The position numbers and the translations under genes were made by a program. Of a DNA stretch of 64,000 nucleotides, positions 51,521-64,000 are shown piece after piece; positions within the stretch are counted from its first letter, which is position 1; each line of letters begins with the position of its first letter. Under the pieces are notes generated by a model. That model ran no database searches. It had not been told where the DNA came from and was given only the letters and a program-made list of their open reading frames with translations. Source of the DNA: Terriglobia bacterium (GTDB taxonomy: Bacteria > Acidobacteriota > Terriglobia > Terriglobales > Acidobacteriaceae); the NCBI GenBank assembly GCA_020073665.1, contig JAIQEU010000019.1, forward strand, positions 1 through 64,000, read 5' to 3'.

Positions 51521-53485
51521 ATGGCCCTGCGGCGCGGTTGGGTGGCTCTCTTCCTCTACTTGAGTTGTGTGTTGTCCTTTGCTGCTACATCGCATCCCAA
51601 CATTATCCTCATCACGCTCGATACCACTCGCGCCGATCGCATGGGCTTTCTGGGCTCGACCCGCGGGCTGACGCCGAATCTGGACGCGGTGGCCAAGCAG
51701 GGCATCGTGTTTTCCCGGGCTTACTCGCACGTCCCCATCACCACCGCGTCGCACACTACCATCCTCACGGGAACCTATCCCCAGTTCAATCATGTGAACG
51801 ATTTCGGCATCCCGTTGGCCAAGAATCTTCCGTATCTCCCGGACCTGCTGCACCAGCACGGGTATCACACTGGAGCGTTCGTGGGTTCGCTCATACTCGA
51901 TCCGCTCGATGGCACTGCACCGGGCTTTGATCGCGGATTCGACGTATACGACGCCGGCTTTCACCTCCGCCGCCACGGCGCGGACCGTTACAAGACGGTC
52001 GAGCGTCGCGCCGGCGATGTGGTGGATCACGCCCTGGGCTGGCTCAGCCAGCTTCCCAACGGCCCCTTCTTCCTGTGGGTGCACTTGTGGGACGCACACG
52101 ATCCATACGATCCCCCGCCGCCGTTCAAAGAGCGCTATGCTTCGCAACCCTACGATGGAGAGATCGCATACGTGGATTCGGCCCTGGGCAAGCTTTTCGC
52201 CGAACTCCGCAAGCATGGCATCTTCGATGAGACCATGATTGTGGTGATGGCGGACCACGGCGAATCGCTGGGTGCGCACGGAGAAAATACGCATGGAGTC
52301 TTTCTCTACGACGAAACTCTGCACGTGCCATTGCTGGTCAAACTGCCGCTGAACCGCACTGCGGGCAAGCGGGTGGAAACCCGCGTCAGCCTGGTGGATG
52401 TAGCCCCAACAATTCTGGGCGAGGCCAGGGTCCCGGTGCCCGAGCAGATGCAGGGAGAGTCGCTGCTGGATACGTTGAAACCGGCCAAGAGCGGCGCGCC
52501 CGAGGACAGGACGGCCTACGCCGAGACCGATTATCCCCACCGGGCATTCGGCTGGAGTTCGCTGCGTGCGATCCGCAGCGGAAAGTATCTCTACATCCAG
52601 TCGCCGGAGCGGGAACTCTACAACCAGTCGTCCGATCCGGCTGAGGTCCACAATCTGGCACCCGGTGCGACCGCGGTAGCCGATACTCTGGCCTCTCAAC
52701 TCCAGGAGTTTCGACGCAAAACCGCGCAGACTCTGGTTGCACTGGCCAAGCCCGATCCAGAGCAGCTGAAGAAGGCGCAAGCACTGGGCTACGTCACCTC
52801 CGATTCTTCTCCTGAGAGCGATAGCAAGAATCTGACAGGCGTAGATCCCAAGAGCAAGATTGAGATCTCCAATCTGCTTCACGACGCCATGTTTGACGTT
52901 GAGGATGCCCGCTACCAGGAGGCGGTTCCCCTGCTCCAGCGTGTGCTGGCGGAGGCGCCTGACATGCCCGTGGCCAACATGCAGTACGGCATGGCGCAGG
53001 CGCGCCTCAAGAATTACGACAAAGCCCTGGGGCCACTGCAGAAAGCCGTGAAATTGCTCCCCGACAACGGCATGGGCCACTACGAACTGGGGCTGGCGCT
53101 GTTTGAGACCGGAGACTGGAAAGCAGCCGCGCCGCAATTCGAGGCTGCGGTGGAGCGCGCGCCGCGGTGGGCCGACGCGCATTTTTCTCTGGCCGCGGTG
53201 TACGCCCGCATCGATCGCGTCCCCGACGCCATGACCGAGCTCGATACCGCTCTTGGCCTGAGTCCCGATCATTACCGCGCCAACTTGCTGCGCGGCCGTA
53301 TTCTCTCGCTGCAGGGCAATCCCGCAGCAGCGGTTCTCAATCTGGAGAAGGCGGTGCAGGTGCAGCCCGATTCCCGCGAAGCGCACGCATTCCTGGCGGA
53401 CGCCTACAACCAACTCGGCCGCGTACTTGATGCCGAGCGCGAGCGAGCCGCAGCCCGGCAGTTGGGCAGTCCTGAAAGACCCTAG
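51521..53485 (+). CDS. Sulfatase/alkaline-phosphatase-fold hydrolase with C-terminal TPR
   Basis: A 654-residue protein. A signal peptide (VALFLYLSCVLSFAA) leads to an alkaline-phosphatase-superfamily domain (about 25-420): NIILITLDTTRADRMGF (first metal site) and VVMADHGESLGAHGE. At the nucleophile position, the usual sulfatase C/S-x-P-x-R is replaced by T-T-A-S-H (Thr74), so a formylglycine cannot form and sulfate-ester hydrolysis by the standard mechanism is not expected. C-terminal TPR repeats (about 450-640: AVPLLQRVLAEAPDMPVANMQYG and similar) end the protein. Such fusions are common in acidobacteria. It ends in a convergent stop overlap (CTAG) with the next gene. Confidence 0.85.
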   Translation: MALRRGWVALFLYLSCVLSFAATSHPNIILITLDTTRADRMGFLGSTRGLTPNLDAVAKQGIVFSRAYSHVPITTASHTTILTGTYPQFNHVNDFGIPLAKNLPYLPDLLHQHGYHTGAFVGSLILDPLDGTAPGFDRGFDVYDAGFHLRRHGADRYKTVERRAGDVVDHALGWLSQLPNGPFFLWVHLWDAHDPYDPPPPFKERYASQPYDGEIAYVDSALGKLFAELRKHGIFDETMIVVMADHGESLGAHGENTHGVFLYDETLHVPLLVKLPLNRTAGKRVETRVSLVDVAPTILGEARVPVPEQMQGESLLDTLKPAKSGAPEDRTAYAETDYPHRAFGWSSLRAIRSGKYLYIQSPERELYNQSSDPAEVHNLAPGATAVADTLASQLQEFRRKTAQTLVALAKPDPEQLKKAQALGYVTSDSSPESDSKNLTGVDPKSKIEISNLLHDAMFDVEDARYQEAVPLLQRVLAEAPDMPVANMQYGMAQARLKNYDKALGPLQKAVKLLPDNGMGHYELGLALFETGDWKAAAPQFEAAVERAPRWADAHFSLAAVYARIDRVPDAMTELDTALGLSPDHYRANLLRGRILSLQGNPAAAVLNLEKAVQVQPDSREAHAFLADAYNQLGRVLDAERERAAARQLGSPERP

Positions 53486-54873
53486 CCGGTCGGATCATCG
53501 CCTTGCGATCGATCCCTGCCAAACCAGGCCGCCGCCAGCACAATTACCACTGGATAACACTCCAAAGTGTAGCGCGGCTCGGGATTTTCCAGCGTCCCGA
53601 GAAACGCCGTGCGCACGATGACGAAGGTCAGCAGCAGTGACAGTGCGGGGCTAAACCTGCCGCGCGCCAACCCCAGGAATGCAGTCATCACATAGAACAG
53701 ACCAATGACGCCCATGCCGACGGCCAGTGCCGACCACTTCGGGTCATCGTCGAATTCCCACCAGCGGCTGTCGGAGGGCAGCATCTCAGTGCGCGGCCGC
53801 AACCACATGTCGGCGATGCGCAGGGCTGGCAGCCACAGGTAGTAACGCACCGGCGCATGCTGGATGCGTTGCGTCGCCAGCGCGGCGAAGCGGGCATCCA
53901 GTTCCGGAGTCACGTGCTGCACATCGTTGTAGTCAGACAGCAGTTGTTCCGTCGCATCGCGCTGCTCTTCCGAGTCAAATGCCCGCAGAGGCAGTTTGTC
54001 CACATCCACATTGCTTCCCGGAACAGCCCAGTACACTTCCTCGACCGAGGCGTATTCCGCGATCCAGGTTTTGATCCATCGATTGAAGCCGGCAGGAACG
54101 AATTCGTTTTCCTCATTGGCATAGCGCGGCGCCAGCGGCTCGAACCGGTGCAGCGTTGCCAGGTTACGCAATGTCCAGGGAACCAGCGGCGCCAGCGCGA
54201 TGGTCGCGATAATCATTGCGGGCCAAATCACCGGCAGAAGTGGGAGCCGGGCTCGCCATCTCCGAAACAGGATCAGGGCCAGATACACCTCGAACGCGAT
54301 CAGCAGCAGACCGCCATCCGGACGCAGCAGGATGGCACCGGCAATCGCAAGCCCGCATCCGGCCCAGGCGCGCTTTTTCCCAGAGTGGAACGCGGCGAGT
54401 CCGACAATGGCGAGGTCGAGTGCCAGGACGGTGAAGAAAACTTCGAGGGTTTCGGTAAGCGCCGCCGCGACGTAGTTAGCCAGAAACGGGCACAGTGCCG
54501 CCAGCAGGAAAACAGTTCGGGTGGCGCGTTCCGAAACCACGCGTCGCGCCACGTCAGCTACCAGGAAGCAGGTACCCAGGTCGACCAGCAGCTGTACGAA
54601 AAGCACCGCGCGGTAGTGCTCCATGCCGAAAAGGGCAAAGATAGCGGCGAGAAACGCCGGGTAACCGGGCAGGCGGATCCAGGTCGGCACGATCGTTGCC
54701 CCGTCGCTTACCGCGTAAACCCCGTGCAGCAGCCAGTTCTTGGCGATGTCGCCATAGATGAAGGAGTCGGTGGTCACGCTGGGGAATCGAACAATGAACA
54801 GCAGCCGCAGCCCAATGGCGGCGAGAGTGACGAGTAAAAAGAAGCGAGGGTATTTGCGCACAATCTGGCGCAC
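53482..54873 (-). CDS. ArnT/GT39-like membrane glycosyltransferase
   Basis: A 463-residue protein with about ten hydrophobic helices, of the GT-C (mannosyltransferase/ArnT-like) type. The first extracytoplasmic loop contains TTDSFIYGDIAKNWLLHGVYA, in which the Asp is the conserved catalytic residue of this fold. It would transfer a sugar from a polyprenyl-phosphate donor outside the membrane. The start is a GTG at 54873. It is transcribed away from the GH18-NodB-GT2 gene across a 130-base divergent spacer, so the two could share regulation; an envelope-sugar role is inferred from that neighbour. Confidence 0.8.
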   Translation of the reverse strand: MRQIVRKYPRFFLLVTLAAIGLRLLFIVRFPSVTTDSFIYGDIAKNWLLHGVYAVSDGATIVPTWIRLPGYPAFLAAIFALFGMEHYRAVLFVQLLVDLGTCFLVADVARRVVSERATRTVFLLAALCPFLANYVAAALTETLEVFFTVLALDLAIVGLAAFHSGKKRAWAGCGLAIAGAILLRPDGGLLLIAFEVYLALILFRRWRARLPLLPVIWPAMIIATIALAPLVPWTLRNLATLHRFEPLAPRYANEENEFVPAGFNRWIKTWIAEYASVEEVYWAVPGSNVDVDKLPLRAFDSEEQRDATEQLLSDYNDVQHVTPELDARFAALATQRIQHAPVRYYLWLPALRIADMWLRPRTEMLPSDSRWWEFDDDPKWSALAVGMGVIGLFYVMTAFLGLARGRFSPALSLLLTFVIVRTAFLGTLENPEPRYTLECYPVVIVLAAAWFGRDRSQGDDPTG

Positions 54874-55003: not shown

Positions 55004-58000
55004 ATGACGCAACCCGTCTTCTACGACCCACGACAAGCCCGCTGGAAGAGGCTCCGGCGCTTGTTCGACATCCTTGGCGTCACTGTCACCCTGCTGATCG
55101 TCTTCTTCGTTTACACCGCTTTGCGAAGCGAGTCGCTGCCCGAGTTGTTGTTGCCGGTAGAAAAGCGTCCCTATCACGCACTCAAGGAAAAAGAGAAGGA
55201 GAAAGCAAAGGAAAAGCGCCGGTCGGCAGCACGCCGGGGCCACCGCAAGTCGAAAGGCGCCCCGTCCCAGGTGCCGCTCAATGCCGAGGAAGGAATCCGC
55301 GCCGCATTCTACGTCCCTTGGGACGCGGCCAGCTTCGCTTCTCTTCGCGAGTACGCCCAACAGATCGATTTGCTGTATCCCGAGTGGCTGCACGTACTGA
55401 CCCCGGACGGCCGGTTGCAGGGCGAAGACCCGGAGACGGTCAAATTCTTCGATGTGATGCAGGGCTCCACCGTCCGGACGGTCGATTTCAAGGTCATGTC
55501 ATTCCTCAAGTCGGAAGACATCGGCATGGAAGTCTTCCCCCTGGTCAACAATTTCGACGGCGCCGACTGGGTTGACGTCAGCGGCTTTCTCAACGACGCG
55601 TCTGCCCGGGAACACTTCCGGCATCAGATGGACGCTTTCCTGGCCAGCGACAAATACCGCGGGCTCATGGTGGATTTCGAAAGTTTTCCCAGGGAAGCCC
55701 AGCCTGGGTACCTGGCCTTGCTGAAGGAACTCTCCGCTGATCTGCATGCCAAAGGTATGAAGCTTTACGTCAGCGTACAAGTCCGCAACGAAGATTTCGA
55801 CTATGCCGCAGTGGCGGCGCCCGCGGACGGCGTTGTGCTGATGAACTATGACGAGCACTATCCCGCGCCGGGTAAGGCCGGCCCGGTGGCCTCGCAGGAC
55901 TGGTTTGTCGGTAACCTGACCGCCGCTAAGCAAAAGATCCCGCAGGACAAGCTGATCTGCGCGATCGGCAACTACGGTTACGACTGGGTGCGCAAGCCCA
56001 AGGGTGGCAAGCTGCCGCCGGATGTGAAAGAGACCATCAACGTTTCGGTGCAGGAAGCGTGGCTGGGAGCGCGCGATTCCGACGAAGACGTGGACTTTGA
56101 TTACGACAGCCTAAACCCGCACTTCAGCTATCTCGATGAGCACAACCTGCAGCACGACGTCTGGTTTCTTGACGCCGTGACCGCGCTTAACCAGATGCGG
56201 GCTGCGCAGGCGGCCGGCATCAATACCTTCGCGCTCTGGCGACTAGGCGCGGAAGACCGCTCGCTGTGGCGGGTGTGGGACCTGCCCAGCGACTCGGAGG
56301 CCCCCGATAAATTGAAGGATGTCCCTCCCGGACAGGATGTCGATATGGAAGGACAGGGTGAGATTCTGAGGATCGAAGCCCGTCCCGCCAATGGACAGCG
56401 GACCCTTACCATTGACCAGGCCAGCGGTCAGATCACGGACCAGACTTTCGAGGAACTGCCGGAACCATACCGCGTCGCCCGCTACGGATACAGCCCCAAC
56501 CAGGTCGCCATTACCTTTGATGATGGCCCCGATCCGGAGTGGACCCCCAAGATCCTCGATGTGCTGAAGCGCGAAAACGCGCCGGCGCTCTTTTTCCTGA
56601 TCGGCATCCAGGCCGACAAGTTCTCCGATGTCACCTCGCGCATTTACCGCGAGGGCCACGAAATCGGGAATCATACCTTTACCCATCCCGATATCAGCAA
56701 CATCTCATCCACGCTGATGAAGCTGGAACTCAATCTCACGGAGCGGTTCTTTGCCAGCCGCCTGGGCATGCGCACCGTCCTGTTCCGCCCGCCATACTCG
56801 ATCGATCAGGAACCGGACACCGCCGACCAGGTGCGCCCCCTGGAATTCACCCAGGACATGGGCTACATCACGGTGGGAGACAAGATTGATCCCAACGACT
56901 GGCGCGAAAACCCGCACCGCACCGCGGAGCACATGGCGGCCGACGTGATCGCGCACTTGCCGCCGTGCGCCCCCAATGACATTGCCTGCGGCAACATCAT
57001 CCTGCTGCACGATGGCGGTGGTGACCGGAGCGAGACCGTGCGCGCTCTGCCCATGATCATCGAAGGTATCCGCGCCAAAGGGTTCCAGATCGTCTCCGTG
57101 TACCAGTTGCTGGGCAAGACCCGCGCCGACGTCATGCCACCGATTCCGGCGAACGAGCGCTGGGCCGCCCGTCTGAACCTGTTTGGCTTTGTCTTGTTCC
57201 CACTGGTGGCCATTGGCATCACCTGGATCTTCTTCGCGGGTGACGTGCTCATGACCGGCCGCCTTCTCTTTGTCGGCGCCTTCGCAATTTTTGATCGCCT
57301 GCGGCAACGACACTTTGGACGGCCAGGAGAGGCCGAGGCCTACCGGCCTGAGGTTGCCGTCCTGGTTCCCGCTTATAACGAAGAGAAGGTGATCGAGCGG
57401 ACGATCCGTGCCGTGCTCGGTTCCAACTATCCCAATCTCCGAGTGATCGTGATTGACGACGGGTCAACCGATCGCACACTGGAAGCGGCACGCCGAGCTT
57501 TTACCCGCGAGCAGGCTTCCGGACAAGTCCTGATCCTGACCAAGCCGAACTCCGGCAAAGCCGACGCTCTTAGTTTTGGCCTGGAGCATCTGCACGACGA
57601 GGAAATCTTCGTCGGCATTGACGCCGACACCATCATCGCTCCCGACGCGATTGCCCGCATGGTGCCCCATTTCCTGAATCCCAAGGTGGGAGCGGTGGCG
57701 GGCAATGCCAAGGTCGGGAACCGGGTGAACCTGTGGACGCGCTGGCAGGCGCTGGAGTACATCACCAGCCAGAACTTCGAACGCCGCGCTCTGAACACGC
57801 TGGGCGCAGTGAGCGTAGTGCCAGGGGCCATCGGCGCCTGGCGCACTGCGGCGGTGCGTGAAGCCGGTGGCTACCACACCGACACTGTTGCCGAGGATGC
57901 TGACCTCACCATGGCCCTGCTACGGCGCGGTTACCGCGTCGAGTATGAAGACCTGGCACTGGCCTTCACCGAGGCCCCAGTCAACGCCAATGGTCTTATG

Positions 58001-58513
58001 CGCCAGAGGTTCCGCTGGTCGTTCGGCATCCTGCAGGCCGTCTGGAAGCATCGCGCGGTGTTTGCCCGCAAGGGCGCGCTGGGATGGGTTGCGCTTCCCA
58101 ACATCGTGATCTTCCAGATCCTGCTGCCGCTGGTGTCACCATTCATCGACTTGGGATTTGTCGTGGGTACACTTCTCTATTACGAGCAGAAGTATTTCCA
58201 TCCCGAATCCACCGATCCGGCCAGTTTCCACAAACTGGTGCTGTTTTTCGCTGCATTCCTGGTCATTGACTTCATCACTTCAGCCATTGCATTCGCCCTG
58301 GAGCGCCGCCTGCCCGAGGCCCGCGAAGATGCCTGGCTACTCAGCCAGGTCTGGCTGCAGCGCTTTGCCTACCGGCAATTGTTCTCGGTGGTGCTGTTCA
58401 AGACTTTGAAACGCGCGATCAAAGGCCAGCGCTTCGCATGGGACAAGCTGGAACGGACGGCGGCGGTAAGCTACCGCCCTGCGGAGAAGGAAGATTCGGT
58501 AAACGTCAGGTAA
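55004..58513 (+). CDS. Three-domain GH18-NodB deacetylase-GT2 glycosyltransferase fusion
   Basis: A 1169-residue membrane protein. One N-terminal helix (LGVTVTLLIVFFVYTAL, about 25-41) is followed by a Lys/Glu-rich linker. Residues about 95-425 are a GH18-like barrel (YRGLMVDFESFP near 217-228 supplies the catalytic D-x-E; GINTFALWRLGAED). Residues about 490-690 are a NodB polysaccharide deacetylase (VAITFDDGPDP, HEIGNHTFTHPDI, RPPYS, ILLHDGG). After a membrane segment (about 725-748), residues about 780-1010 are a GT2 synthase: VLVPAYNEEKV, IDDGSTDRT, GIDADT, AEDADLT and QRFRW. Further helices end it. It looks like PgaB and PgaC combined, suggesting synthesis with modification and trimming of a deacetylated aminoglycan. 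Confidence 0.9.
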   Translation: MTQPVFYDPRQARWKRLRRLFDILGVTVTLLIVFFVYTALRSESLPELLLPVEKRPYHALKEKEKEKAKEKRRSAARRGHRKSKGAPSQVPLNAEEGIRAAFYVPWDAASFASLREYAQQIDLLYPEWLHVLTPDGRLQGEDPETVKFFDVMQGSTVRTVDFKVMSFLKSEDIGMEVFPLVNNFDGADWVDVSGFLNDASAREHFRHQMDAFLASDKYRGLMVDFESFPREAQPGYLALLKELSADLHAKGMKLYVSVQVRNEDFDYAAVAAPADGVVLMNYDEHYPAPGKAGPVASQDWFVGNLTAAKQKIPQDKLICAIGNYGYDWVRKPKGGKLPPDVKETINVSVQEAWLGARDSDEDVDFDYDSLNPHFSYLDEHNLQHDVWFLDAVTALNQMRAAQAAGINTFALWRLGAEDRSLWRVWDLPSDSEAPDKLKDVPPGQDVDMEGQGEILRIEARPANGQRTLTIDQASGQITDQTFEELPEPYRVARYGYSPNQVAITFDDGPDPEWTPKILDVLKRENAPALFFLIGIQADKFSDVTSRIYREGHEIGNHTFTHPDISNISSTLMKLELNLTERFFASRLGMRTVLFRPPYSIDQEPDTADQVRPLEFTQDMGYITVGDKIDPNDWRENPHRTAEHMAADVIAHLPPCAPNDIACGNIILLHDGGGDRSETVRALPMIIEGIRAKGFQIVSVYQLLGKTRADVMPPIPANERWAARLNLFGFVLFPLVAIGITWIFFAGDVLMTGRLLFVGAFAIFDRLRQRHFGRPGEAEAYRPEVAVLVPAYNEEKVIERTIRAVLGSNYPNLRVIVIDDGSTDRTLEAARRAFTREQASGQVLILTKPNSGKADALSFGLEHLHDEEIFVGIDADTIIAPDAIARMVPHFLNPKVGAVAGNAKVGNRVNLWTRWQALEYITSQNFERRALNTLGAVSVVPGAIGAWRTAAVREAGGYHTDTVAEDADLTMALLRRGYRVEYEDLALAFTEAPVNANGLMRQRFRWSFGILQAVWKHRAVFARKGALGWVALPNIVIFQILLPLVSPFIDLGFVVGTLLYYEQKYFHPESTDPASFHKLVLFFAAFLVIDFITSAIAFALERRLPEAREDAWLLSQVWLQRFAYRQLFSVVLFKTLKRAIKGQRFAWDKLERTAAVSYRPAEKEDSVNVR

Positions 58514-58632: not shown

Positions 58633-59997
58633 ATGGCACGAACCGTCATCGAGCCTTTCCGCATCAAGAGCGTCGAACCCATCCGCTGGACTACGCGCGA
58701 ACAACGCGAACAACTGCTGCGAGCCGCGCACTACAACCTGTTTCTGCTACCCGCGGACGACGTTCTGATCGATCTGCTCACCGACTCCGGCACCGGCGCC
58801 ATGTCGACCCACCAGTGGGCGGCGATTATGGAAGGCGACGAGAGTTACGCCGGCAGCAAGAGCTTCACCCGCTTCCGGGACTCCGTCCAGGACATCTTCG
58901 GCTACCGCCACGTGATTCCCACCCACCAGGGCCGCGCCGCCGAACGCATCCTGTTCAGCGTGATGTGCAAGAAGGGCGACATCGTTCCCAACAACACTCA
59001 CTTCGATACCACGCGTGCCAACGTCGAATTCGTCGGCGCCGAGGCCGTAGACCTGGTCATTGAGGAAGGCAAGCATCCCAGCCTGGTACATCCCTTCAAA
59101 GGCAACATGGATGTAGAGGCGCTGGAAACCGTGATCAACCGGGTAGGCCGGGAGCGTATTCCCCTGGTCATGCTCACCGTGACCAACAATTCCGGCGGGG
59201 GCCAGCCGGTTTCCATGGACAACGTTCGTCAGGTCAGCGCAGTCTGCCGGCGCAATCGCATCCCGCTCTACTTTGACGCCTGTCGTTTCGCTGAGAACGC
59301 CTACTTCATCAAGTTGCGAGAGCCAGGGTACGAGTCGAAAACGCCCAAGCAAATCGCGCAGGAGATGTTCAGCTACGGCGAGGGTTGCACCATGTCGGCC
59401 AAGAAAGACGGCATGGCCAACATCGGCGGTTTCCTGTGTACCAACGACGAAATGCTTGCCCAGCAGGAGAAGGATTTGCTAATCCTTACCGAAGGCTATC
59501 CCACCTACGGCGGCCTTGCCGGACGCGACCTCGAGGCCGTCGCCGTTGGGTTGCAGGAAGCGCTGGAAGAAGACTATTTGCGCTACCGGATTGCCTCGAC
59601 CGCTTACCTGGGAAACCACATTGCAGAGCAGGGTGTACCCATCGTGCAGCCGCCGGGCGGACACGCCGTCTACCTTGATGCTCGCGCTTTCCTGCCGCAT
59701 ATCCCGCCGGAGCAATTCCCAGGCGTGGCACTGGCCACGGAACTTTACCTGGAAGGTGGAATTCGTTCGGTTGAGATTGGCGGGCTGATGTTCGGCGCCG
59801 CCGCCAAGATGGATCTGGTGCGCCTGGCCATCCCCCGCCGCGTTTACACCCAGAGCCACATCGATTACGTGGTCGAGGTCATCCTGGAAGTCTGGAAGCG
59901 GCGGGAACAAATTCAAGGATTGCGTCTCACCTACGAAGCCCCATTCCTGCGACACTTTACCGCAAGGTTGGAACCCGTAGAAGTAGGAGTGGTGTAG
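58633..59997 (+). CDS. Tryptophanase-like beta-eliminating lyase (tryptophan indole-lyase)
   Basis: A 454-residue PLP enzyme of the tryptophanase/tyrosine phenol-lyase family. EPFRIKSVEP, IDLLTDSGTGAMS, YAGSKSF, IPTHQGRAAE and SAKKDGMANIGGFL (PLP lysine) are all present. Two specificity positions point to tryptophan: HFDTTRANV has Asp where tyrosine phenol-lyase has Thr124, and GIRSVEIGG has Ile in place of Arg381 of the phenol-lyase. It would split tryptophan to indole, pyruvate and ammonia. It is alone, without tnaC or a tnaB permease. The ATG at 58633 lies nine bases from AGGAG; ATG 58628 is out of frame with it. Confidence 0.9.
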   Translation: MARTVIEPFRIKSVEPIRWTTREQREQLLRAAHYNLFLLPADDVLIDLLTDSGTGAMSTHQWAAIMEGDESYAGSKSFTRFRDSVQDIFGYRHVIPTHQGRAAERILFSVMCKKGDIVPNNTHFDTTRANVEFVGAEAVDLVIEEGKHPSLVHPFKGNMDVEALETVINRVGRERIPLVMLTVTNNSGGGQPVSMDNVRQVSAVCRRNRIPLYFDACRFAENAYFIKLREPGYESKTPKQIAQEMFSYGEGCTMSAKKDGMANIGGFLCTNDEMLAQQEKDLLILTEGYPTYGGLAGRDLEAVAVGLQEALEEDYLRYRIASTAYLGNHIAEQGVPIVQPPGGHAVYLDARAFLPHIPPEQFPGVALATELYLEGGIRSVEIGGLMFGAAAKMDLVRLAIPRRVYTQSHIDYVVEVILEVWKRREQIQGLRLTYEAPFLRHFTARLEPVEVGVV

Positions 59998-60047: not shown

Positions 60048-61286
60048 TCAGCTCGCCACTGCCGTTTCCACCGCGGCTCGCGTAAGCGGCAGCAGTACCA
60101 CGAAACGGCTGCCTTTGCCCAGCGTACTGCTCACGTCAATGCGCCCGTGATGCTCTTCCACAATCCGGCGGGCGAGCGATAATCCCAGCCCGGTGCCGTT
60201 GCCCTTCGTTGTATAAAACGGCCGGAAAATATTGGGCAGCGTTTCGGCCGGAATGCCGCGGCCGGTATCGGTCACCACGATGGCAGCGGAGTCGCCGTGG
60301 CGCTCGATATCCACCGTGATCTTGCCCGGGCCGTCAATGGCCTGGATGGCGTTGAGCAGCAGGTTGAGCAGCACCTGGTGGACCTGGCCGCTATCGTGTT
60401 CCACTTCGGGCAGCGATGGGTCTTTCTTCAACTCAATCTGGATTGGCTTCGACAGCCCCTGCTGTCGTGCCAGCATGACGGCATGCTCGACCGTGGTGTT
60501 CAGATCGCTACGGCGGATCTCGGGTGGGTGCGGCCGCGCAGTCTGCAGCAAGTCGGTAAGGATGCGGTTGATCTGCGCAATCTCGGCGCGGACTTCTTTC
60601 ACTACCGCCCGGGCGGGGCTGGTCGTCGGCAGGTCGCGTCCGATGATCTCGATGACGCCGGCGATTCCCGCCAGCGGGTTGCGAATCTCGTGCGCCAGGC
60701 CGGTGGCCAGCTCGCCCAAGGTGGCCAGGTGCTCGGCGCGCGACATCTGGGTGCGATGCAGCCGCTCGATCTCCTCGCGGCTCTCACGCAACTGCGTCAC
60801 CATGCGGTTGAAATTGCGTCCCAGGTCGCCAATCTCGTCGTTGCGTCGAGCGAAACTCACCGACGCGTGCAGATCGCCTTCGCCGACGCGGGCGATTTTT
60901 TCCTGCAATTCGACCATGGGCCGCTGGATCACCCAGGTGAGTACGAACAACAGGGCCGCGCACACTGCGACCGCTCCGGCTCCGGCCACGAACAAGACCA
61001 TGTGGCGCTCGGTATCGCGCCACGAGACCGTGGCCAGCATAAACAATAGCAGTCCGTTGAGCAGAACGAACGCGATCGGCAGCACCGTCTTGATCTGCCA
61101 GTTGATGCGCACCAGGGATACTCCGGAATCAGAAGGTGCGGGCTCGACCATCGTCTTCATACTTCCCCCGTGATGCGCGGTAGAAAAAACTGCCGGACCG
61201 GCGGCGGTCTCCGGAACCGTGCTTGCAGTGGCCTCGGATTCCTGTTGCACGACCGAACTGCTTCCTCCCTGGGCGATCTCAGGCAT
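60048..61286 (-). CDS. Sensor histidine kinase (HAMP-HisKA-HATPase), coupled to ccsA
   Basis: A 412-residue membrane kinase. Two helices (about 65-84 and 97-118) flank a very short outside loop, then a HAMP linker (about 118-172), HisKA (phospho-His in [13 protein letters not shown]) and HATPase_c (N box [34 protein letters not shown]). It resembles the NtrB/HydH-type kinases with little sensory domain, so the signal may come from the membrane or from the cytoplasm. The ATG at 61286 overlaps ccsA by eight bases; an ATG at 61160 behind GGGGGAAG is a good alternative. No response regulator is adjacent in the window. Confidence 0.92.
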
Positions 61287-62679
61287 ACGCGTGCATCCCG
61301 GGGAGCAGGTAGGTCACACCGAAGAAGGTGAACATCACCACTCCGAAGCCAAGAATGGCGAAGTAGGCAGCCCGCCGTCCTCGCCAGCCGCGGGTGATGC
61401 GCATGTGCAGATACCCGGCATATACCAGCCAGGTAATTGCTGCCCAGGTTTCCTTCGGATCCCAACTCCAATAAGAACCCCAAGTACGGTTGGCCCAGTA
61501 CGCGCCCGCGGCGATCATCAGGGTGAGCAACGGGAAAGCAATAGCGATCGTCTTGTAAGTGATGCGGTCGAGTTCGTCAGCGTTGGGCAGCATCCGCTGC
61601 AGGTCCTGTCGTCGCCACAGCAGCAGTAGGTAGAGCAGGGAGACAAAGATCCCTCCCACCAGCCCCGAGAGAATGAACGGGCTGGCGGTCAGGCTGGTGG
61701 CGTAGAATCCCTCGGCATCAAGCGATCCATACTGGCCATCCCGCGCCCGCAGCAGGAAGAACGCCAGCGCCAACACCTGCAGCAGGATGCCTACGAACAC
61801 CGCGTTATTGGCGATATTGATCAGGCGTTCGTCATGGTTCCGGCGTGAAATCAGGTAGAGGGCAAACGGAGCTCCCACCGCTACCAACACCAAAACCATG
61901 AGCCAGCCCAGGTCGGGGATGACCACGAACAGCCGCATCCCTTTGGCAATGAAGATCTCGGATTTCTCTTTCGGATCCCACGCCGCCAGGCTCAGACCGC
62001 CCCATTTTTCGAAGCGGGTCAGCACGCCCGCGTACGTCGCAATCCCAAACAGGCTGGTAGCGGCCAGGAACGTCTCCGTCTTCATGCCATCCTGGATCAG
62101 GAACATCATCGCCAGTGCGAAACTCAGCGCACAGGCCGCGTAGGCCAGCATGGCCAGGGTGACGTGTACGTGCAGCCAGGTGGATTGCAGAGCCGGCACC
62201 AGAGGATGCACGTCCGTCCGCAACAACTGCATCAGGACCACGCCGACAATCGCGACCGGCATGGTCACTGTGCCAATCACTTTCACGTTAAAACGCTTTT
62301 CTGCGATCAAAGTGAGCACAGCCAGCGTCCACACAAAGCTGAGCAACATTTCATAGATGCTGGCGAACGGCGGATGCCCGGCTTCGTACCAGCGATGGGC
62401 CACGGCTCCGGTGTTGGCCACCAAACCTACCCATGTCGCCAGCGAGGCGAAGCGCACATACGAAGGCGTGCCGGTCACACCGAATCCCAGGTAGAGAGCG
62501 CCGGCGCCCGCGTAGAAGATCAGCGCGGCGTAAAGCAGGTTGGATTCATTCAGCAGGTTGCCGCTCTTGACCACGTTGAGAAACGCCATGAACAGCAGGA
62601 AAGCAACGCTAAGCCCGACCAGCACCACCAGCGTGGTCCCGGTTGCGGTCGGCTGTTGCTCAGCTCTTGCGCGTGCCAT
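61279..62679 (-). CDS. ccsA: Cytochrome c biogenesis protein CcsA (ResC-type)
   Basis: A 466-residue membrane protein of the System II cytochrome c synthase. Many helices surround the heme-handling motif [14 protein letters not shown] (the WWD domain, about residue 400). It works with ResB (next gene) to export heme and attach it to apocytochrome CxxCH motifs. The ATG at 62679 follows GGAGG; longer frames up to 62961 lie inside resB's C-terminal coding region. It is followed by the histidine kinase with an eight-base overlap and lies 23 bases after resB. Confidence 0.93.
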
Positions 62680-62702
62680 AGGAACATCCTCCGTTGCCGG
62701 AA

Positions 62703-64000
62703 CTAGACTCCGGCCAGTGAAGCGGCATGCGTGGGTGCGCATGGCTCCGGTTTGATCTTGAGTTCCACCTGAATCTCTTCCACCAGTCTCTGGAAACGCT
62801 CTTCGAAAACTTCCCGGTTCTTGTTGGCGGTACCGCCCAGCCACAGAACCAGCTGTCCGCGCGCATTGTGCACTGGCACGATCCAGAAACGCATGTGGAC
62901 GAGATAGAAGACGACGCCGAGACCCAGCCCCATCAGGACTACTCCTGTCCACACCGCCCATTGACCAGGCTCGTGCGAGACCTCCAGACCGGTGAAATAG
63001 CCTGTCTTCAAGTCCTTGGCTTCGAATTGGTACGGCGAAGCTGCGTTTTGCTCGACGCCGGGAATCGCGGGCAACCAGAAATTAAACGTCTTGCCGGTTT
63101 TCCTGGACTCAACAATCAGGTGCACCGCTGGGTTCTCGACTTGCGCCGAACGGGTGTAGACCTGCCCATCGCGGACCACGTAATCGGGAATGAACTCAGC
63201 CATCCGCACCGAAGTGTCGGCATCCAACTGCGCCGGTTCATCGAACGTGAGTGCGATCTGCTTGGCTTCGCCAGTGCCTGATGTGAGACTTGCAGCCAGA
63301 ACCAACTCGTCGAGTTTGCCGGTGGGTCCATAGCTGGCCTGGTAGAAGCGGACGCCGCGGTACACCAAGGGCTCGTTTACCACGATCTCTTTGTGCAGCA
63401 CGTCGCGGCCGTCTTCTAACACTGTGAGCTGCGACCACCATTTCTTGGGACTCCCGTCGGCGTAGTTTTCCTGGCCGGCGCCATCGCAGCGAATCAGAAA
63501 CGGAAGCTGGTGCTTGGTGCCGTTTTGGGCTTCGACTTGGCCTGATTGCTGTCCGCGGGTCAGGGCAACGTATCCGCGCCATCCCCACAATCCGTCCACA
63601 ATGCCACCCAGGAAAATGAGCAGCAGGCTGGCATGCACGATGTAAACCGCCAACTCGGAGATGCGGTTGCGCTCACCAAACAGCGAGAACCGGTTTTCGC
63701 CCACGATCCTTTCCGGGCCCAGCCTCATCCGCCGAAACGCCCGCTCGGCTGCCATCAGCCCCGCTTCCTCATTTTCGATGGGAATCTGCGCCTGGGTAGG
63801 CAGCGCCTTGCGGAAGGTTTCGTCCGGGCTCTTATAGGGACGGGCAAAGTAGCGCCAGGCATTGGGGAACCGCTGAATGGAGGCGGCGATGATGCTCAGG
63901 CTAACCAGGGTCATCAGCAGCAGGAACCACCAGGCATGAAACACATCCGTCAGTCCCAGGGCATCGAGCACACGCAGCATCTGCGGCGAGTACGCCCGTT
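62703..64000 (-). CDS. resB: Cytochrome c biogenesis protein ResB/Ccs1 (5' end off the right edge)
   Basis: The visible 432 codons hold the ResB core: [21 protein letters not shown] helix, a large extracytoplasmic domain ([40 protein letters not shown]) and a C-terminal helix ([26 protein letters not shown]). An in-frame ATG at 63980 exists, but the frame continues without a stop to the edge (codons read RAYSPQ), and the first ResB helix is missing, so the true start is beyond base 64000. It forms the System II complex with CcsA (23 bases downstream). The GVRFYQ motif is typical of the family. Confidence 0.9.

Follow-up and report, generated by a model that had tools for sequence, protein, structure and literature searches.

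A trifunctional GH18–CE4–GT2 protein of a Terriglobia bacterium and its relatives in many phyla

In the Pga system of Escherichia coli, a GT2 synthase, a CE4 deacetylase and a hydrolase act on a GlcNAc polymer as separate proteins, encoded in an operon that also includes PgaA and PgaD; in PgaB, a CE4 domain precedes a GHL13 hydrolase domain. In the Pel system, hydrolase and deacetylase lie in one periplasmic chain, PelA, and synthesis falls to a second protein, PelF, from a different glycosyltransferase family. Domain model CDD cd06549, which we take to describe the GH18 of trifunctional proteins, covers cases in which GH18, GT2 and polysaccharide deacetylase domains form one bacterial protein. 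Contrary to the assumption of a sequence-only reading of the DNA studied here, synthase and deacetylase are not always separate in poly-N-acetylglucosamine (PNAG) systems: they are fused in Streptomyces MatB, where a predicted transmembrane (TM) helix links GT2 inside the cell to CE4 outside it (PMC5972031), and both matA and matB are required for PNAG (PMC5972031, PMC4391728). The three-domain combination is itself in print, listed as GH18–CE4–GT2 for Acetivibrio cellulolyticus (ZP_09465738) in 2012 (PMC3413522) and as CE4–GH18–GT2 for Sphingobacterium multivorum w15 in 2020 (PMC7065263). A literature search found no experimental study of any GH18–CE4–GT2 protein.

Here we analyse such a gene in a 64,000-nucleotide stretch of a Terriglobia genome (the window). 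Its features are as follows.

55004–58513, + strand: trifunctional GH18–CE4–GT2 gene, 1169 amino acids (domain matches; start codon aligned with homologues)
55016–55051, + strand: predicted cytosolic N-terminal motif, residues 5–16, VFYDPRQARWKR (homologue alignment)
55061–55126, + strand: TM helix 1, residues ~20–41, predicted to run in to out (hydropathy; AlphaFold2 helix 12–40)
55289–56296, + strand: GH18 TIM barrel, residues 96–431, with D224, E226, Y282, D283 and W412 (Pfam, homologue alignment, structure comparison)
56336–56488, + strand: linker rich in β-strands between GH18 and CE4, residues 445–495 (AlphaFold2 secondary structure)
56495–57112, + strand: CE4/NodB deacetylase, residues 498–703, with TFDDGPDP, H557xxxH561, RPPY, D629xxDW633 and LHD (Pfam, homologue alignment, structure)
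57149–57313, + strand: long helix 716–770 containing TM helix 2 (~736–764), predicted to run out to in (hydropathy, AlphaFold2)
57347–58027, + strand: GT2 catalytic domain, residues 782–1008, with DDGS, DAD, AED and QRFRW (Pfam, homologue alignment)
58076–58306, + strand: helices 1025–1065 and 1072–1101, TM helices 3 and 4 (hydropathy, AlphaFold2)
58331–58423, + strand: C-terminal helix 1110–1140 with invariant QR at 1119–1120, at the interface or transmembrane (alignment, AlphaFold2)

The reading frame is unbroken from the ATG at 55004 to the stop codon that ends at 58513. Pfam assigns residues 193–416 to GH18, 498–600 to CE4 and 782–1008 to GT2, all above the curated cut-offs, and this order within a single chain is that of the trifunctional GH18–CE4–GT2 proteins. 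The exact frame, the Pfam matches and the full-length homologues described below bear out the proposal that GH18-like, NodB and GT2 domains share one protein here. The Acetivibrio and Sphingobacterium proteins carry the identical three catalytic families, and the Acetivibrio entry also matches in domain order; the likeness is one of listed architecture alone, no function being given for either. An AlphaFold2 model of the whole protein, built from an alignment of 45 sequences, has a mean pLDDT of 87.8 and a pTM of 0.70. The VIA-align rows for this model mostly cover the GH18 domain, such that the lack of other families among them carries no meaning.

The synthase domain matches the Pfam GT2 family with 109 bits. 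Its motifs lie at 818–821 (DDGS), 873–875 (DAD), 963–965 (AED, previously described as TED-like) and 1001–1005 (QRFRW), and residues D819, D873, D875, E964, D965, Q1001, R1004 and W1005 are invariant among 52 full-length homologues from at least six phyla, the set used throughout to assess residue conservation. With its DD, DxD, ED and QxxRW motifs and a modelled GT-A domain held by TM helices, it would belong to the processive membrane GT2 enzymes. The best named profile is that of PgaC/IcaA (NCBIfam TIGR03937), at 178.6 bits against an equivalog cut-off of 422.3, and BLASTP gives 30% identity to E. coli PgaC; the NodC profile scores 95 bits, also below its equivalog cut-off. By structure comparison the nearest folds are hyaluronan and cellulose synthases, and model residues 734–1143 superpose on the membrane GT2 enzyme 6yv7 over 337 of 345 residues (Z 32.2, r.m.s.d. 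3.2). A GT2 tree of PgaC, CE4–GT2 fusions and paralogues from the same genome has long branches and leaves 13 of its 22 inner branches open.

The deacetylase domain (Pfam Polysacc_deac_1, 102 bits) has all five canonical CE4 motifs, including the predicted Asp-His-His metal triad. Ten of its residues (D506, D507, H557, H561, R595, D629, D632, W633, H669 and D670) are invariant in the 52 full-length proteins. It is nearest to peptidoglycan GlcNAc deacetylases (TM-score 0.84 with Bc1960, 4l1g), and the NodB profile scores 104 bits without reaching its equivalog cut-off.

The GH18 match is weaker (36.7 bits against a cut-off of 29.6), and the hallmarks of family 18 are found: a TIM barrel, the catalytic Glu of DxE, and the Tyr-Asp and Trp subsites; the first Asp of the DxxDxDxE motif is not retained. 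The modelled domain superposes on chitinase 5jh8 with Z 34.1 and r.m.s.d. 2.2 over 304 aligned residues. Its nearest folds are chitinases and SleL, and it is also close to the SleL/YaaH/YdhD spore-cortex enzymes. The catalytic residues are kept in about 90% of the 52 homologues (D224 in 51, E226 in 47, Y282 in 47, D283 in 49 and W412 in 51). Among the exceptions, Bryocella, Granulicella paludicola and one acidobacterial bin (L059, L066 and L069) combine Gln in place of the catalytic Glu with D283G, two Mucilaginibacter sequences (L112 and L130) have Asp in place of this Glu and have lost Y282, and three further sequences have Y282F. CE4 and GT2 remain intact wherever the catalytic Glu is replaced by Gln or Asp. 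Its loss in the Granulicella/Bryocella and Mucilaginibacter sequences suggests that hydrolysis is not always needed, and these exceptions, set against the invariant CE4 and GT2 motifs, indicate a stricter constraint on synthase and deacetylase than on hydrolase.

How these domains are placed relative to the membrane depends on the number of helices between NodB and GT2, which the sequence-only reading had left to be checked. Hydropathy and the AlphaFold2 model agree on one. Six Lys or Arg residues lie within residues 1–20, ahead of TM helix 1, and basic residues at 765–773 follow TM helix 2. A cytosolic N terminus and a single crossing between NodB and GT2 put GH18 and CE4 outside and GT2 inside, and the model accordingly has the N terminus in, GH18 and CE4 outside, one helix, and GT2 inside. 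An even helix count, which would leave GT2 outside the membrane and refute the sequence-only reading, is not supported, since AlphaFold2 models one continuous helix at 716–770. The hydrophobic span of ~720–766 is nevertheless long for a single crossing and leaves some doubt on the topology. The predicted arrangement resembles that of MatB, which likewise has GT2 inside, CE4 outside and a TM helix between them, its GT2 nearest PgaC and its CE4 nearest PgdA; MatB differs in having two domains, with no GH18 described, and in working with MatA. Ahead of TM helix 1, the N-terminal motif VF[YF]DP...RW is strongly conserved, with F6 and R13 present in 44 of 45 aligned homologues, the remaining one being gapped. 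A Kocuria CE4–GT2 fusion without GH18 starts with MFYDPSGKRW, the same N-terminal motif as in the trifunctional proteins.

Orthologues of the window protein form a widespread family. Homologues align with it end to end at identities from 76% down to ~34%, well beyond what chance would give, and come from Acidobacteriota, Cyanobacteriota, Pseudomonadota, Gemmatimonadota, Bacillota, Bacteroidota and one Armatimonadota bin; a Prevotella protein is 34% identical across the whole length, and homology thus extends across phyla. In a search of relatives, 36 of 61 genomes (its own counted) had a match at E ≤ 1e-40, mostly full length, and within the phylum 46 of 247 genomes, across many families, had one at E ≤ 1e-100. 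We also scanned 84,980 species genomes and used the best 80 loci; these come from at least six phyla and include Acidobacteriota, the cyanobacterium PCC 7702, Alpha-, Beta- and Gammaproteobacteria, Gemmatimonadota, Aneurinibacillus, Bacillus, Bacteroidota and an Armatimonadota bin (Chthonomonadaceae). Given this range and the 2012 and 2020 listings, the suggestion of a new machine is not supported. As the identical full-length frame recurs in independent genomes, a sequencing or assembly fusion artefact is ruled out.

Copies on plasmids occur in Sphingobium, Sulfitobacter, Deinococcus and Prevotella, mostly annotated just as glycosyltransferase. The Sulfitobacter plasmid copy (L134:2674-6087) is annotated as two genes, and we considered it as a natural split that would speak for modularity. 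This was dropped, because the two pieces share a frame that tblastn follows without a break, and CE4 is cut where the first piece ends, so that the locus looks like one gene with an in-frame stop in CE4. On a Kocuria rosea plasmid (L133:2902-6207), the CE4–GT2 fusion adjoins a convergent gene annotated as chitinase, with a weak GH18 match, a layout that fits three parts belonging to one pathway.

Upstream of the trifunctional gene lies a divergent gene:

53482–54873, − strand: PMT_2-type membrane glycosyltransferase (Pfam, locus clustering)

Among related acidobacterial loci, 24 have a homologue of this gene, and in 22 that homologue directly adjoins the trifunctional gene in divergent orientation; the PMT_2 gene is also kept in Acidobacteriota that are less closely related (L075, L076 and L078). 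It is a possible partner of the trifunctional protein. Genes for LolA and seryl-tRNA synthetase lie near the PMT_2 gene in Acidobacteriaceae and, by clustering, do not recur in those three distant loci. Across the 80 loci, with flanks of up to 8 kb, no export or regulatory partner was widely recurrent outside Acidobacteriota. The window also encodes, around this pair, a sulfatase domain fused to C-terminal TPR repeats (51521–53485, + strand), a member of the tryptophanase/tyrosine phenol-lyase family (58633–59997, + strand) that exceeds the tryptophanase subfamily cut-off and falls below the TnaA and tyrosine phenol-lyase equivalog cut-offs, a HAMP histidine kinase (60048–61286) and a cytochrome c assembly protein (61279–62961, − strand) with a further open reading frame beside it (62703–63980, − strand).

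With synthase, deacetylase and hydrolase in one membrane protein and GT2 modelled in the cytosol, the best reading is that a polymer is made and processed by one chain, as the sequence-only reading had proposed. We think it likely that this one inner-membrane protein synthesises, deacetylates and hydrolyses a GlcNAc-type exopolysaccharide. On the cytosolic side, GT2 would polymerise UDP-GlcNAc and pass the growing chain through the membrane helices. In the periplasm, CE4 would strip some of the N-acetyl groups, as its invariant metal-site and catalytic motifs suggest, and GH18 may cut or trim the chain or clear failed product. GH18 and canonical CE4 enzymes usually act on β-1,4 chains, whereas the GT2 profile leans to a β-1,6 PNAG synthase. 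The evidence on linkage thus conflicts, pointing both to a β-1,4 chitin- or chitosan-like product and to a β-1,6 PNAG-like one. Two further observations speak against this reading: beside the gene no export partner is conserved outside Acidobacteriota, and some homologues have lost the catalytic Glu of GH18.

The affinities of the single domains allow other readings. With a CE4 closest to peptidoglycan GlcNAc deacetylases and a GH18 near the spore-cortex enzymes SleL/YaaH/YdhD, the protein might instead serve the cell wall, CE4 and GH18 acting on peptidoglycan GlcNAc and GT2 adding a sugar or short glycan to a lipid carrier or to the wall. We regard this as unlikely: the GT2 shares QRFRW with processive synthases and has PgaC/IcaA as its nearest profile, and MatB, a CE4–GT2 protein whose CE4 resembles PgdA, is required for PNAG and not for a wall glycan (PMC5972031). 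It is likewise improbable, and distinctly so, that the product is a chitin- or nodulation-factor-like oligosaccharide made by a NodC-like GT2 and a NodB-like CE4, with GH18 setting its length. Both the NodC and the NodB profile find their domains, and GH18 chitinases are the nearest folds; but PgaC/IcaA outscores NodC on the GT2 (179 against 95 bits), no equivalog cut-off is reached, and no further sugar-modifying genes of the nodulation-factor kind are seen beside the gene.

That PgaB and PgaC were literally fused, as the phrase 'PgaB and PgaC merged' in the sequence-only reading implied, is very improbable. The functions do parallel those of PgaB plus PgaC, and the GT2 shares its 30% identity with E. 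coli PgaC, yet the PgaC cut-off is missed, the PgaB hydrolase is GHL13 and not GH18, and the order is reversed, Pfam placing GH18 before CE4 here and no GHL13 C-terminal to CE4. BLASTP gives no significant match to E. coli PgaB, and this, with the family and order of the hydrolase, refutes such a fusion as the ancestry of the hydrolase part. Profile searches of the window's genome found no GHL13 or PgaD and no PgaA or PgaC above the curated cut-offs, and neither a PgaA porin nor PgaD adjoins the trifunctional gene. What stands of the earlier interpretation is synthase, deacetylase and hydrolase in one chain, together with the observation behind it; the Pga merger and the novelty do not.

Returning to the preferred reading, in which one protein does all three tasks, we tentatively raise the possibility, itself doubtful, that the family, spread across many phyla, forms and processes a GlcNAc polymer within a single self-contained chain, needs no dedicated Pga-type partners and is governed by the conserved N-terminal motif F-x-D...R. 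The interest of the locus lies in a widespread enzyme family and not in a new architecture. The bacteria that carry it belong to many phyla and include soil dwellers, plant associates and a Prevotella. One gene with synthase, deacetylase and hydrolase would be handy for work on partly deacetylated GlcNAc polymers or for their production.
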